A stretch of DNA of 64,000 nucleotides from Corynebacterium halotolerans YIM 70093 = DSM 44683 (GTDB lineage: Bacteria > Actinomycetota > Actinomycetes > Mycobacteriales > Mycobacteriaceae): contig NC_020302.1 of NCBI RefSeq assembly GCF_000341345.1, positions 104,075 through 168,074 of the forward strand, given 5' to 3'. The translations under genes and the position numbers were made by a program. Shown here in pieces: positions 22,006-58,027 of the stretch (within the stretch, counting starts at the first letter, position 1; each line of letters begins with the position of its first letter). A model generated the notes under the pieces. It had not been told where the DNA came from, did no database searches, and saw nothing but the letters and a program-made list of their open reading frames with translations.

Positions 22006-22380
22006 CTGGGGTTGCCCGCAAATCGTGGACAGTTAGTTAAGCTGCATTCTCCGCGGCAGCGGTCGCTGCCTGGTGGTAGGCGTTCTCGAAGTCGACCGGG
22101 GGTTGGTTGCCGATCGAGGAGTGCCGGCGCCGCCGGTTGTAGAAGATCTCGATCCACCGGGCGACGGCCTGGCGGGCCTCATCCCGGGTCTTCCACTTCC
22201 GTCGGTCGTAGAACTCGGTCTTCAACGTTGACCAGAAGGATTCGGCCATCGCGTTATCGAAGCAGACTCCCGTGCGCCCCATCGACTGATCAATCCCCAA
22301 CTCCTGGCACACCTGGTAGAGCTGATCACTGGTGAACTGGGTTCCCCGGTCCGCGTTAAGCCGAATTCGGCTTAACGCTG

Positions 22381-22466
22381 ATTATGCCGAGGTTTGTGTT
22401 AAGCCGAGGAATTGTGTTCTGGCCTGTGCTGGCACGGATCGGTGAGGGATTCCTCGGCTTAACGTT
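22381..22466 (+). repeat. Left 86-bp inverted repeat of the RIT element
   Basis: By direct comparison it is the exact reverse complement of 25724-25809. Inside it TTAAGCCGAGGAAT (22399-22412) and ATTCCTCGGCTTAA (22449-22462) form a 14-bp internal inverted repeat, probably recombinase core and arm sites. Confidence 0.92.
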
Positions 22467-22518
22467 TCGGTCGTCGTAGTGTTCGCCGTATCCATCCGTC
22501 TATGGAAAGGAAACGGTC

Positions 22519-23730
22519 ATGGATACGACCGTCACCCAGCTCGGCGTGGTCGTCACCGCAGCGTTGCGGGCAGCCGGGTACAAGGAATCAACGATCGGCC
22601 AGTACCTGAAGACCATCAGGCTCCTCGAAGACTTCATCGACGCCCGTGGCGGGATCTATACATCCGCGTTGGGTGCCGAGTTCGCGGCGCTGACGACAAG
22701 CCCGCGCACCGGCAGGTTCAGCGCCCAGAGGCGGTTCGCCTACAGCCGGGCTGTCAATGTGTGCGACTCTTACCTGCGCACCGGCGAAGTGGATTTATCC
22801 CCGCGTCAGCGCGGTGGGGGTGGCCGGCAGCCGGAAGCAGACGCCTTCACCATGCTCAACGCCATGTGGGAAGCCGACATGTCCGGTCGTGGGCTGGCGC
22901 CCGCGACCCGGGAAGCCTATGGACGAATCACCCGCAGCTATCTCGGGTATCTCGAAGACTGCGGGATTTCCTGTCTTGACGACGCGACCCCGGCTACCGT
23001 TCCCGGGTTCTTCGCATCCCTGCTCGATCACGGGTGGGCTCCGTCGTCCTTGTTCTGGCAGGTGGCGAACTTCCGCCCCTTCGTGAAGTTCACCGGCCGT
23101 GGGGACCTCGTCGACGCGATCGGTCTCGTCGGCGCCCGCCGCTCACACACGATTATTCCCGTCCTGTCCGATGACGATGCACAACGGCTTGTCACCGCAT
23201 GCGCGTCTGCGGACACGGTCAGCCGCCGGGATGCGGCGATCACGCTGCTGGCGCTGATGACCGGGCTGCGGGCCTGCGACATCATCAACCTGCGCTTGAC
23301 CGATATTGATTGGCGGGCCCAGACCATCTCGCTCGTTCAGCAGAAGACGAGCAACCCTGTGACTCTGCCGTTGCCGGGACTGCTGGTTAACCCGCTGGCC
23401 GACTACCTACTGACGCAGCGGCCCGACTCGAATGATGATCACGTGTTCCTGCGCAGTCTGGCCCCACACACCCAGCTCGCCGATCATGCATCCGTCTACA
23501 GAATCACCGCCGAAACGTTCCGGAAGGCCGGAATCACCGATGTGAAAGCCGGAACACGGTTTCTGCGGCACAACGCCGCCTCACGACTGCTGCGGGCGTC
23601 GGTCCCGCTGCCGACGATCGCCGCCGTGCTCGGCCACGCCAGCCAGGAATCGACGAACGTGTACATGAGTGTTGATCAGCAGCGTCTCCTCGACTGCGTG
23701 CTGCCAGTTCCGGCAGGAGCCCGGCCATGA
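22519..23730 (+). CDS. RIT tyrosine recombinase 1
   Basis: The 403-residue protein has a SAM-like N-terminal arm-binding region (residues about 1-200). A phage-integrase domain follows: MTGLRACDIINLRL (catalytic Arg), QQKTSN (Lys), LGHASQESTNVYMSVD (His and the Tyr nucleophile). The box II position usually HxLR reads RFLRHN here, so the first histidine is replaced by Arg. GGAAAGGAAA precedes the ATG. It overlaps recombinase 2 by ATGA. All three proteins are probably needed together for transposition, as inferred for RIT and Tn554-like trios. Confidence 0.9.
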   Translation: MDTTVTQLGVVVTAALRAAGYKESTIGQYLKTIRLLEDFIDARGGIYTSALGAEFAALTTSPRTGRFSAQRRFAYSRAVNVCDSYLRTGEVDLSPRQRGGGGRQPEADAFTMLNAMWEADMSGRGLAPATREAYGRITRSYLGYLEDCGISCLDDATPATVPGFFASLLDHGWAPSSLFWQVANFRPFVKFTGRGDLVDAIGLVGARRSHTIIPVLSDDDAQRLVTACASADTVSRRDAAITLLALMTGLRACDIINLRLTDIDWRAQTISLVQQKTSNPVTLPLPGLLVNPLADYLLTQRPDSNDDHVFLRSLAPHTQLADHASVYRITAETFRKAGITDVKAGTRFLRHNAASRLLRASVPLPTIAAVLGHASQESTNVYMSVDQQRLLDCVLPVPAGARP

Positions 23731-24686
23731 CCGCCGAACACGAGTTCACCAGCGCCTTCGCCGCCGATCTCGACGGGTACCTGGCATTCAAGGAGAAGAT
23801 GGGATTCTACGGAGCCTCCCGGATCGTGTACCTGCGGCGGTTCGACGCCTACTGCACCCGGCTGGGCCGGACCGTTTTCGACCGTGCCACCGTCGAAGGA
23901 TGGGTCATCGACGAGCTGCAACGCTCCAGCACGTACCGGTCGTGGATGTCCTATATCCGCGACTTCGGACGGTGGCTGCACACCCACACCCAACCGGGTG
24001 CCTACATCTTGTCCGATCAGTGGAAATCCTCGTTCACCCGTGCCCATCCCTACCTGCTCACGCAGGATGAGATCGACCGGTTCTTCATCGCCGCGGCCCG
24101 TCTCGAAGCCGCCTCGCCCTGGGCGTGGCAGGCAGCCGCGTTCTTCACGCTCATGCACTCGGCCGGACTCCGGACGATCGAAGCCCGCCACCTGCTGACC
24201 GACCAGGTCGACCTGGCCGGCGGTCACATCGACATCATCGGATCCAAGGGCCACCGCAGCCGCCGACTGCCCCTGACCGCCGACGTCATCGACGTCCTGA
24301 CCGCCTGCGATACGACCTCGCGGGCCCACCTCGGCCCACGAACCCCGTTCTTCGTCTCGTCGACCGGTAAATCGGTCACCCCAGCAACCGTAGGGGTGAT
24401 ATTCAACCGGATCTGGGACCACGCCGGACTGGCCAGGCCCACCGACGGCAGACAGCCCCGGCCCTACGACTTTCGCCACCACTTCGCCTACGCCAACCTC
24501 GAACGCTGGATGACCAACGGCACCGACATCACCGCGATGCTGCCGTACCTGGCCCGCTACATGGGACACGCGACCTTCGATTCGACCTACTACTACGTCC
24601 ACACCTCCCCGGACTTCATGAACGCTTACGCCGACATCACGGCCAGCCAGAGTCAGTCACTGCTGCCGGAGGTCGGTTTCGAATGA
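23727..24686 (+). CDS. RIT tyrosine recombinase 2
   Basis: The 319-residue protein has the integrase catalytic pattern: HSAGLRTIEARHLL (Arg), GSKGHRSRRLPL (Lys), YDFRHHFAYANLE (box II, with Tyr where His is usual before xxR), and RYMGHATFDSTYYYVHTS (His and Tyr). The N-terminal third is a SAM-like DNA-binding region. It is the middle gene of the trio, with four-base ATGA overlaps on both sides, so expression is translationally coupled. The family is TnpB-like by order and size. Confidence 0.9.
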   Translation: MTAEHEFTSAFAADLDGYLAFKEKMGFYGASRIVYLRRFDAYCTRLGRTVFDRATVEGWVIDELQRSSTYRSWMSYIRDFGRWLHTHTQPGAYILSDQWKSSFTRAHPYLLTQDEIDRFFIAAARLEAASPWAWQAAAFFTLMHSAGLRTIEARHLLTDQVDLAGGHIDIIGSKGHRSRRLPLTADVIDVLTACDTTSRAHLGPRTPFFVSSTGKSVTPATVGVIFNRIWDHAGLARPTDGRQPRPYDFRHHFAYANLERWMTNGTDITAMLPYLARYMGHATFDSTYYYVHTSPDFMNAYADITASQSQSLLPEVGFE

Positions 24687-25717
24687 AACGCGACCCCGCC
24701 ACCGATCAGGCGAACGTGTGGGTCTTCGCCCGGGACTTCCTTCACGCCTATCTGCCCAACGTCCGAGGGCTGTCGGTGAAGACGATCGAAGCCTACCGGA
24801 TCAGCCTCGAGTGCTTCCTCGTCTTCCTGACCGACCACGAACATGTTGAACGCGCCCACGTCACCTTCGACCACTTCGATCGATCACACCTGAAAGCCTG
24901 GCTGACCTGGATGAACACCGATCGTGGCTACGCTCCACGCACGATCACGCTCCGCCTATCCGCGATCAAGGCGTTCTTGTCCTACGCCGCGGCCGAGGAC
25001 CTCACCCTCATCGCCGTTCACCAGGCCGCGCAGACGCTGAAGACCCCACCCACCGCCAAGGCACCGATCGAGTACCTCACCGACGACGAAACACGAGCAG
25101 TTCTTGCCGCGCACACCGGGAAAACCAGCAAATCTCGCCGGAACCGGATGCTGCTCATCCTCCTCTACGACACCGCCGCCCGCGTCGGAGAAATCACCGC
25201 CCTGACCCTGCAGAATCTGTCCCTGACCACCCCCGGACACGTCACACTGACCGGCAAACGCAACAAGACCCGCGTGGTGCCCCTGAGCGAGAAAACGATC
25301 GAGCACCTGCACGTCTATCTCGCCGAGTTCCACCCGAACCCGGCACAGCTGCCAGCAACCAGACCCCTCTTCTACAGCCTGCACCACGGGCAGCCGACCC
25401 GCCTATCGACAGACACCGTATCCGCCGTCCTGAAGAAGGCCGCCGAATCCGCACGCGACCACTGCCCCTCCGTGCCAACGAACATCCACTGCCACATGCT
25501 GCGCAAGACCAAGGCCATGGACCTCTACCAACAGGGCATTCCCCTGCCGATCATCATGCGTCTGCTCGGACACGAGAACGCCTCGACCACCCAAGCGTTC
25601 TACGCATTCGCGACCCTGGACATGATGCGCGACGCCATCACCGCCGCCACACCCACCACCGATGCCCCGGCCCGCCTCACCGAGGACACGCTCACAGCCC
25701 TCTACAGCCTCCGATAA
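24683..25717 (+). CDS. RIT tyrosine recombinase 3
   Basis: The 344-residue protein carries the full R-K-H-R-H-Y set: YDTAARVGEITAL (Arg), LTGKRNKTRVVPL (Lys), CHMLRKTKAMDLY (HxLR) and RLLGHENASTTQAFYAF (His and Tyr). Its N-terminal part is a SAM-like core-binding domain. Of the three recombinases it has the most canonical active site. Six bases after its stop the right inverted repeat begins, so nothing else is carried by the element. Confidence 0.92.
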   Translation: MKRDPATDQANVWVFARDFLHAYLPNVRGLSVKTIEAYRISLECFLVFLTDHEHVERAHVTFDHFDRSHLKAWLTWMNTDRGYAPRTITLRLSAIKAFLSYAAAEDLTLIAVHQAAQTLKTPPTAKAPIEYLTDDETRAVLAAHTGKTSKSRRNRMLLILLYDTAARVGEITALTLQNLSLTTPGHVTLTGKRNKTRVVPLSEKTIEHLHVYLAEFHPNPAQLPATRPLFYSLHHGQPTRLSTDTVSAVLKKAAESARDHCPSVPTNIHCHMLRKTKAMDLYQQGIPLPIIMRLLGHENASTTQAFYAFATLDMMRDAITAATPTTDAPARLTEDTLTALYSLR

Positions 25718-25723
25718 CCCGGC

Positions 25724-25809
25724 AACGTTAAGCCGAGGAATCCCTCACCGATCCGTGCCAGCACAGGCCAGAACACAATTCCTCGGCTTAACACAAACCT
25801 CGGCATAAT
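25724..25809 (-). repeat. Right 86-bp inverted repeat of the RIT element
   Basis: It is the reverse complement of 22381-22466 with no mismatch found by eye. Confidence 0.92.
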
Positions 25810-25953
25810 CCGCGTGGAACACCAGGCCCTCGGGGACGTCCCCGCGTAGAGTGTGGGCCATGCGCAGGGCACGCTCCACGAGGTCGGTGGTCTGCGTGGA
25901 ATCCATCGCCCATCCGAGCACGCGTCGCGAGCAACCGTCGCGCACCGCACTGA

Positions 25954-26568
25954 GGCGGCCTGGAGGACAGCGACAACATCTCCGTCATCGGCGGGTTCAC
26001 CCAGGGCACCCGCAGCATCTACACCAAGGATTCCCCGGTGCTCACGCCGGCGGACATGGACGGCCGGAAGATCCGCGTCCAGGAGTCCGACATGCACATC
26101 CGCATGATCGAGCTCATGGGCGGCTCGGCTACCCCGCTGTCCTACGGCGAGGTCTACACCGCCATCCAGTCGGGCGTGCTCGACGGCGCGGAGAACAACG
26201 AGGTCAGCTACGTCACCCAGAACCACCACGAGGTCGCACCCTTCTGGAGCGACACCCAGCACCTGGTGGGTCTGGACTACATGGTCATGCGCCACGACCT
26301 GCTCGAGGCGATGTCCGAGGAGGACCGTGAGATCTTCCTCGAGGAGTGGGACAAGACCATGGTCGAGCACACCGATCTGTGGCAGGAGGAGACCGATCAG
26401 GCCATTGAGGCCGCCAAGGCCGCCGGCGCCACCTTCCACGAGGTCGACCGCGAGGCCTTCAACGAGGCGCTGGCCCCCATCCGGGACGAGTTCCTCACCA
26501 CGGAATTCCAGCGCGACCTCTTCGAGCAGGTCCGCGCCGCCGATCCGGAGCAGGGGAGTGACCAGTGA
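25954..26568 (+). pseudogene. dctP: TRAP transporter solute-binding protein DctP, N-terminally deleted
   Basis: The frame reads GGLEDSDNISVIGGFTQGTR and continues with DMDGRKIRVQ, GGSATPLSYGEVYTAIQSGVLDGAENN and the family C-terminus, ending 4 bases into dctQ. These 204 residues match the C-terminal 60% of DctP proteins (usually about 330). The signal peptide and the first lobe are missing. An in-frame TGA at 25951 marks the junction with the IS3-family remnant. An internal ATG at 26038 could start translation, but the product could not be exported or bind ligand normally. A deletion driven by the IS is the likely cause. Confidence 0.88.
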
Positions 26569-57484: not shown

Positions 57485-58027
57485 CTGGGGTTGCCCGCAA
57501 ATCGTGGACAGTTAGTTAAGCTGCATTCTCGTCGGCAGCGGTTGCTGCCTGGTGGTAGGCGTTCTCGAAGTCGACTGGGGGTTGGTTGCCGATCGGGGAG
57601 TGCCGGCGCCGGCGGTTGTAGAAGGTCTCGATCCACCGGGCGACGGCTTGGCGGGCCGCGTTGCGGGTCTTCCATTTCCGGCGGTCGTAGAACTCGGCCT
57701 TCAACGTCGACCAGAAGGATTCGGCCATCGCGTTGTCGAAGCACACTCTGGTACGCCCCATCGGCTGATCGATCCCCAGCTCCTGGCACACCTGGTAGAG
57801 CTGACCACTGGTGAACTGGGTTTCCCGGTCAGCGTGGAACACCAGCCCGTCCGGGGCCTCACCGCGCAGGGTGTGGGCCATCCGTAGGGCCCGTTCCGCC
57901 AGGTCCGTGACCTGGGTGGAATCCATCGCCCAGCCCACCGCCCGTCGTGAGCAACCCTCGCGCACGGCGCACAGGTACAGCCAGCCTTCTCCGGTGTGCA
58001 GGTAGGTGATGCCGAGGGGAACCCCAG
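57485..58027 (-). mobile_element. Short IS3-family remnant, second copy
   Basis: This 543-bp element shares its left edge (CTGGGGTTGCCC) and transposase sequence with the copy at 22006. Its right edge is CTGGGGTTCCCC in inverted orientation (58016-58027), so terminal repeats are present although OrfA and the front of OrfB are missing. It looks like an internally deleted derivative. Confidence 0.75.
57516..58014 (-). pseudogene. Truncated IS3-family transposase (OrfB)
   Basis: The frame reads GITYLHTGEGWLYLCAVREG, then GWAMDSTQVTDLAERALRMA, FHADRETQFTSGQLY and NAMAESFWSTLKAEFY. It covers the integrase core from just after the first catalytic Asp to the C-terminus. In the usual DITYL motif the Asp is replaced by Gly at the truncation point, so the active site is incomplete. 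No OrfA exists. The product could at most be an inactive fragment. It lies between vanR and the IclR gene and shares the orientation of the first copy. Confidence 0.85.

Follow-up and report, generated by a model that had tools for sequence, protein, structure and literature searches.

A recombinase-in-trio element in Corynebacterium halotolerans, its target codons in IS3-type transposase genes and a proposed dual-core route of movement

How does an element with three recombinase genes and hardly anything else choose and enter its target? This question is raised by a RIT (recombinase in trio) element in the genome of Corynebacterium halotolerans YIM 70093 = DSM 44683, located in a window of 64,000 nucleotides (NC_020302.1, positions 104,075 to 168,074 of the forward strand; window coordinates are used below). 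RIT elements were described in Cupriavidus metallidurans (PMC3414803) and named on pHG1 (PMC2864759). The 2012 account regarded RIT mobility as still to be shown and the need for three recombinases as unclear (PMC3414803), and in the comparison table of a 2023 research paper the RIT entries for target specificity, for the empty site and for movement are still given as untested (PMC10214605). In this study, we closely examined the ends and insertion sites of the element and its relatives, found a fixed coding motif as the target and arrived at a concrete, testable model of RIT movement.

The element extends from 22356 to 25814 (about 3.46 kb). Its forward strand carries ritA (22519..23730, 403 amino acids), ritB (23727..24686, 319 amino acids) and ritC (24683..25717, 344 amino acids), identified as tyrosine recombinase genes by open reading frame (ORF), Pfam and alignment analyses, for ritC also by a PDB sequence search. 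The three genes fill the space between the terminal repeats, every large ORF there is a recombinase, and all three products match the Phage_integrase domain. Neighboring genes overlap by 4 bp, each overlap being ATGA, as stated in the original prediction made from the sequence of the window. The terminal inverted repeats (22375..22466, forward; 25724..25815, reverse) are complementary at 91/92 positions (99%); hence, the predicted repeats do exist, with a length of 92 nt and a single mismatch instead of the 86 bp claimed. With recombinase frames free of internal stops and nearly perfect repeats, the sequence identifies a RIT element that is apparently intact, as had been proposed. Furthermore, a 20-bp palindromic spacer, TTAAGCCGAATTCGGCTTAA, is located at the left end only (22356..22375); it occurs at two places in the genome at ≤2 mismatches, and the right end lacks these 20 bases. 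Neither this one-sided palindrome nor the fixed target motif described below featured in the original prediction. The hexamer CGCTGA (22376..22381, forward) lies between the palindrome and the rit-left end and is part of an exact match to a putative recombinase core, CGGCTTAA-CGCTGA-TTATGCCG (22368..22389, forward). We refer to it as the inner hexamer and to the rit-left end as the unused end. Two outer hexamers, both CGCGGA on the reverse strand, border the element on the palindrome side (22350..22355) and at the used rit-right end (25809..25814). All eight window copies of the 9-base motif TTAWGCCGA, counted on either strand, lie inside the element.

The gene interrupted by the element had been assigned to an IS3-family transposase, and the rve_3 and rve_2 domains detected in its flank (Pfam; 22037-22312) bear this out. 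Its C-terminal part (22037..22349, reverse) starts in the junction frame at the Asp context D-R-G-T-Q-F adjoining the element, and frame reading places an upstream remnant ending in ...EGLVFH on the other side (25815..25951, reverse). That the insertion site could be reconstructed also proved true, as two uninterrupted IS copies show the empty site, one at G000:C1:770007-770458 and one in the same window (57519..57968, reverse, bounds approximate). Across the insertion site they read GTGTTCCACGCGGACCGG and GTGTTCCACGCTGACCGG, the latter in the window copy, and the target codons are His-Ala-Asp. We take this Asp to be the second catalytic residue of IS3 transposases. The IS that hosts the element is truncated as well: IS similarity ends near 25951, and the upstream frame comprises only 57 amino acids. 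At 25951-26568 the broken-off IS runs into a TRAP transporter solute-binding (DctP) gene without a start, for which the Pfam match is confined to the rear portion of the DctP profile.

Comparison of the element ends with the rest of the genome, a check suggested at the outset, revealed one further copy (G000:C1:2240052-2243511, locus L006). It is identical to the window element over 3,441 bp (100%) and occupies the same codon in a different copy of the IS (93% alike in the flank tested), with the rit genes in the opposite direction relative to the IS. Since the element is identical while the IS flanks are only 93% alike, it postdates the divergence of the two IS copies that host it. These observations are best explained by a recently active element that belongs to an actinobacterial RIT subfamily.

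We analyzed whether the same target is used by other members of this subfamily. Two-ended insertions were found in Brevibacterium jeotgali (L023), on plasmids of Mycobacterium riyadhense (L024) and Rhodococcus opacus (L025), once in genome G398 (L028) and five times in genome G539 (L034-L038), giving together with the two copies of C. halotolerans a sample of 11 insertions in six hosts. In 11/11 the insertion site is the H-x-D motif of a transposase, and Pfam integrase-core domains were present in the C-terminal flanks tested. The rit genes run in the direction of the transposase gene in six insertions (L006, L024, L025, L034, L036, L037) and against it in five (window, L023, L028, L035, L038), and in all 11, regardless of orientation, the spacer is 20 bp long and lies on the C-terminal side of the motif. 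Read in transposase sense, every insertion has the same layout: ...H, a hexamer of the form CNNNGA or TNNNGA, the element, the palindrome and a second hexamer, followed by G and Q close to the Asp (for example, D-R-G-S-Q-Y). Counting the inner hexamer between palindrome and unused end, each insertion holds three hexamers, and in all 33 the residue between H and D is S, A or T. Four further loci were left out of the count: L026 has a palindrome at both ends, L063 and L064 have one end only, and L065 carries an internal deletion and ends one base off the search motif. All four lie at the target motif shared by the 11 and, where this is readable, have the palindrome C-terminal to it.

The hexamers also bear on how the element joined its target. 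The original prediction had noted CCGCG on both sides of the window element, and the pentamer is indeed present at 22351-22355 and 25810-25814. It occurs once in the closest uninterrupted IS copy, as would be expected if ordinary transposition had duplicated 5 bp of target. However, the outer hexamers are unequal in the sister copy L006 and in 8/11 two-ended insertions overall, so that there is no target-site duplication; the sister copy led us to reject this explanation. A duplication would account neither for the one-sided palindrome nor for its fixed side, and we regard it as scarcely credible. The pentamer thus stands as an observation and its reading as a flanking duplication does not: going by the sequence, CCGCG belongs to a crossover hexamer (CGCGGA in reverse complement, within the His-Ala-Asp codons) that by chance is equal on both sides here.

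The three G539 copies that share one orientation have CAGCGA as inner hexamer and the two reversed ones CGCCGA, and the hexamer carried by each circle end could therefore be deduced. In the seven copies whose used end is revealed by an oppositely oriented sister (five in G539, the window copy and L006), the hexamer of the element itself is found as one of the outer hexamers in 7/7; the remaining one is presumably that of the target. It is the palindrome side that carries the element hexamer in L035, L036 and L037, but the opposite side in L034 and L006; the window copy and L038 have the same hexamer at both outer junctions.

Opposite orientations could also arise if a RIT element had entered an IS once, been copied along with it and later been flipped in place by recombination between its ends. 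Window/L006 and L036/L038 are pairs of this kind, in which the IS copies are related and the element points in opposite directions. Flipping should, however, preserve the hexamer between palindrome and IS. This hexamer is CGCGGA versus CTCCGA in the first pair and CGCCGA versus CAGCGA in the second, and for this reason in-place inversion was rejected. The 100% identity of an element in IS flanks 93% alike, and the occurrence of the five G539 copies in four different transposase contexts, also speak against it, leaving it very unlikely. In L036 and L038, the C-terminal-side IS flank is identical over 339 bp and the upstream frames end alike, with the codon next to the palindrome differing (GCC versus AGC). 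This difference is best read as element sequence left in the transposase gene.

Taken as a guide to mechanism, these patterns make it probable, in our judgment, that the element moves as a double-stranded circle, in which two opposed cores flank the palindrome, and integrates at a 6-bp crossover via either core. Excision would join the ends as [right inverted repeat]-6 bp-[20-bp palindrome]-6 bp-[left inverted repeat], and the joint modeled in this way is a palindrome with 101-bp arms and one mismatch. The circle joint would hold two opposed tyrosine-recombinase cores of the form CGGCTTAA-CNNNGA-TTATGCCG, either of which could recombine with an IS3-type transposase gene at its H-x-D codons (C|NNN|GA). 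Use of the left core would give one rit orientation and use of the right core the other; either way, the palindrome would come to lie C-terminal to the target. Element and target hexamers might mismatch; one junction would then retain that of the element and the other that of the target, without target duplication, and codons from earlier targets would be carried along by the element. The proposed dual-core circle would thus be the cause of the fixed palindrome side, both orientations, the hexamer pattern and the absent duplication. Hexamer positions 2 to 4 clearly exchange, and a crossover length of six is suggested by arm symmetry. The order of strand exchange and the binding of each recombinase to a particular arm are likewise putative; as palindrome, repeat and target arms differ in sequence, each could, speculatively, need its own recombinase.

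A nearly perfect palindrome as the modeled joint would also suit a folded single strand, as in integron cassettes or as proposed for SE elements, in which the repeats pair, the palindrome forms the tip and one double-stranded core results. One strand exchange would be completed by replication, either strand could be used to give both orientations, and the palindrome would again be fixed on one side of the target. For SE elements, the presumed substrate is a circle that is either single-stranded or has been replicated (PMC10214605). By this route, the element hexamer is expected mostly on one side, as in SEs, but here it occurs on both, three times versus two, with only five informative copies. 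We consider a folded single strand unlikely and retain the double-stranded dual-core circle as the working model.

Tn916 joins its circle ends by 5 to 7 nt that need not match the target, which implies no target duplication. The same is reported for Tn1549, whose circle ends are joined by a 5- to 7-nt heteroduplex (PMC5871717). The RIT element would work in a similar manner, given that a nonmatching crossover sequence is shared between two junctions (hexamers different in 8/11, that of the element present in 7/7). However, Tn916 and Tn1549 have one integrase, one core and AT-rich targets (in part after PMC5871717), whereas the window RIT has three recombinases, two putative cores and a protein-coding motif. 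Membership in the Tn916 family, with its single integrase, excisionase and conjugation genes, was considered and rejected, all three large ORFs being recombinases. With SEs and GInts, the element shares the presence of more than one tyrosine recombinase and site-specific insertion; these have four conserved genes, in contrast to three here. In SEs, a 6-bp spacer is retained that serves as both fingerprint and footprint (PMC10214605), and circles whose attachment sites vary are formed by GInts (PMC5385486). The circle of an SE contains a single 6-bp spacer between its motifs, and the 6 bp of the element go preferentially to one side (PMC10214605), whereas among the five informative RIT copies the hexamer is on one side in three and on the other in two.

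In line with published RITs, the element has three adjacent tyrosine-recombinase genes (overlaps of 4 bp here and 4 to 8 bp in the family), a size of ~3.5 kb and insertion in transposase genes (PMC3414803, PMC2864759). A terminal inverted repeat with an overlapping palindrome, and variation at RIT ends, have also been reported (PMC3414803). RitC shows 33.9% identity over 86% to the pHG1 trio. In contrast to our element, the excerpts of both texts contain neither a fixed target codon nor a 20-bp spacer between two cores nor hexamer exchange (PMC3414803, PMC2864759).

To see how far the pattern extends, we sampled 14 distant RIT-like loci from plasmids, drawn from 60 among the matches listed, beyond the close relatives; 419 plasmid records have a weaker RitC match. 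The sampled distant RITs, proteobacterial and actinobacterial, sit at other target motifs. Ten had inverted repeats and were used for a spacer test against shuffled controls, with the repeat bounds of L058 set by hand. A 20-bp palindrome flanked by hexamers abuts one end in 7/10 (7/14 sampled), L061 being the weakest positive (10/200 shuffles reach its score). Targets were read from flank translations and Pfam. Eight of the 10 tested loci (8/14 sampled, four not assessed) adjoin mobile-element enzyme genes, one adjoins a YhcG nuclease gene (L053), and for one (L058) the target was not identified. L049 adjoins a tyrosine recombinase, and L051 overlaps a gene annotated as site-specific integrase, a fragment without Pfam match. 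L055 and L062 adjoin integrase-core transposases, in L055 with istB as the next gene, L061 an IS66 transposase, and L054 and L059 IstB, at ...LIIL and ...VLLL. In Rhodococcus pseudokoreensis (L052:2642-6125), a group II intron reverse transcriptase is split after G-T-P-Q, with both flanks matching; in L054, L059 and L062, just one flank agrees with the target gene. Read by eye, these sites are presumably conserved or catalytic motifs (for example, H-x-D, P-Q-G-G, Walker B, active-site Tyr). The second recombinase of L052 is annotated in two pieces.

Several points weigh against the proposed model and its reach. It rests on sequence comparison; neither a circle nor an excision product nor a fresh insertion was seen. 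Two of the 11 copies come from C. halotolerans and five from G539, so that they do not amount to 11 independent lineages; chance figures of 3.5e-6 (codons) and 0.001 (palindrome side) count related copies as independent and were not used as evidence. The script used to find ends sought TTATGCCG/CGGCATAA and GAATTC, the spacer center, so that conservation of those letters was partly selected for. The target hexamers in G539 were deduced; a search for an uninterrupted copy of the IS that hosts L036 and L038 found none, and it did not extend to the IS hosts of L034, L035 and L037. Among the distant loci, L054, L059 and L062 (3/10 tested) had no 20-bp palindrome above shuffled controls, and L050, L056, L057 and L060 gave no convincing inverted repeat with the seeds used.

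Beyond the subfamily, the balance tips slightly in favor of RITs as a family having two opposed cores around a 20-bp palindrome and entering in either orientation. Their lineages would be specialized on short, near-invariant coding motifs in the enzymes of other elements (IS3 H-x-D, IS21 transposase, IstB, IS66, group II intron reverse transcriptase, tyrosine recombinases), capturing and rewriting target codons. This suggests a mobile element that parasitizes others at codons those can hardly change, and excision could leave a working H-S-D, H-A-D or H-T-D motif. To our knowledge, an attachment site with two opposed cores is known from no other tyrosine recombinase. Among the papers listed by the literature searches, none was seen to describe a dual core, a target codon or an exchange of hexamers, although an earlier description is possible, as the main RIT paper of 2013 lay outside the search; a literature search for transposase-motif targeting likewise found none. 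The dual-core junction and the codon targeting therefore look new. What the analysis adds is the target rule and a model of movement with exact predictions from the sequences: circle joint, two cores, 6-bp exchange and target codon.

Regarding the recombinases, RitA has ~110 additional N-terminal residues, with SAM-like Pfam matches at 117-191 only. Two core-binding domains in RitA and an extra C-terminal helix in RitC are reported RIT features (PMC8138268). Catalytic residues were assessed from one six-protein alignment and one PDB sequence search with RitC as the query. In M. riyadhense (L024:267-4054), ritA is split by an IS630-family transposase gene, with ritB and ritC uninterrupted.

Close relatives of RitC are rare in the genome sets searched, which overlap. 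At E ≤ 1e-60, matches were found in 1/101 genomes of the genus (own only) and 3/397 of the order (own included), and at E ≤ 1e-80 in 2/396 of the phylum and 2/394 of the class (own included in each) and in 2/101 genomes around G539. A contig scan for relatives yielded one locus (L023, B. jeotgali), and phage records gave four matches of <40% identity.

The incomplete or rearranged loci show further forms of the element. In R. opacus VOC-14 (L065:4650-5115), an internally deleted RIT derivative of ~450 bp lies at an H-S-D motif and has the palindrome C-terminal to it. This derivative resembles a nonautonomous form that RIT enzymes could move in trans. On a plasmid of Arthrobacter sp. U41 (L026:1056-6509), a RIT with a C-terminal IS half has the palindrome at both ends, as would be expected from recombination between two oppositely placed copies. 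Two R. opacus plasmids carry one-ended RIT remnants at the same transposase motif (L063:4500-4900 and L064:4500-4900), and in L064 the palindrome directly adjoins the end of an IS30 transposase gene.

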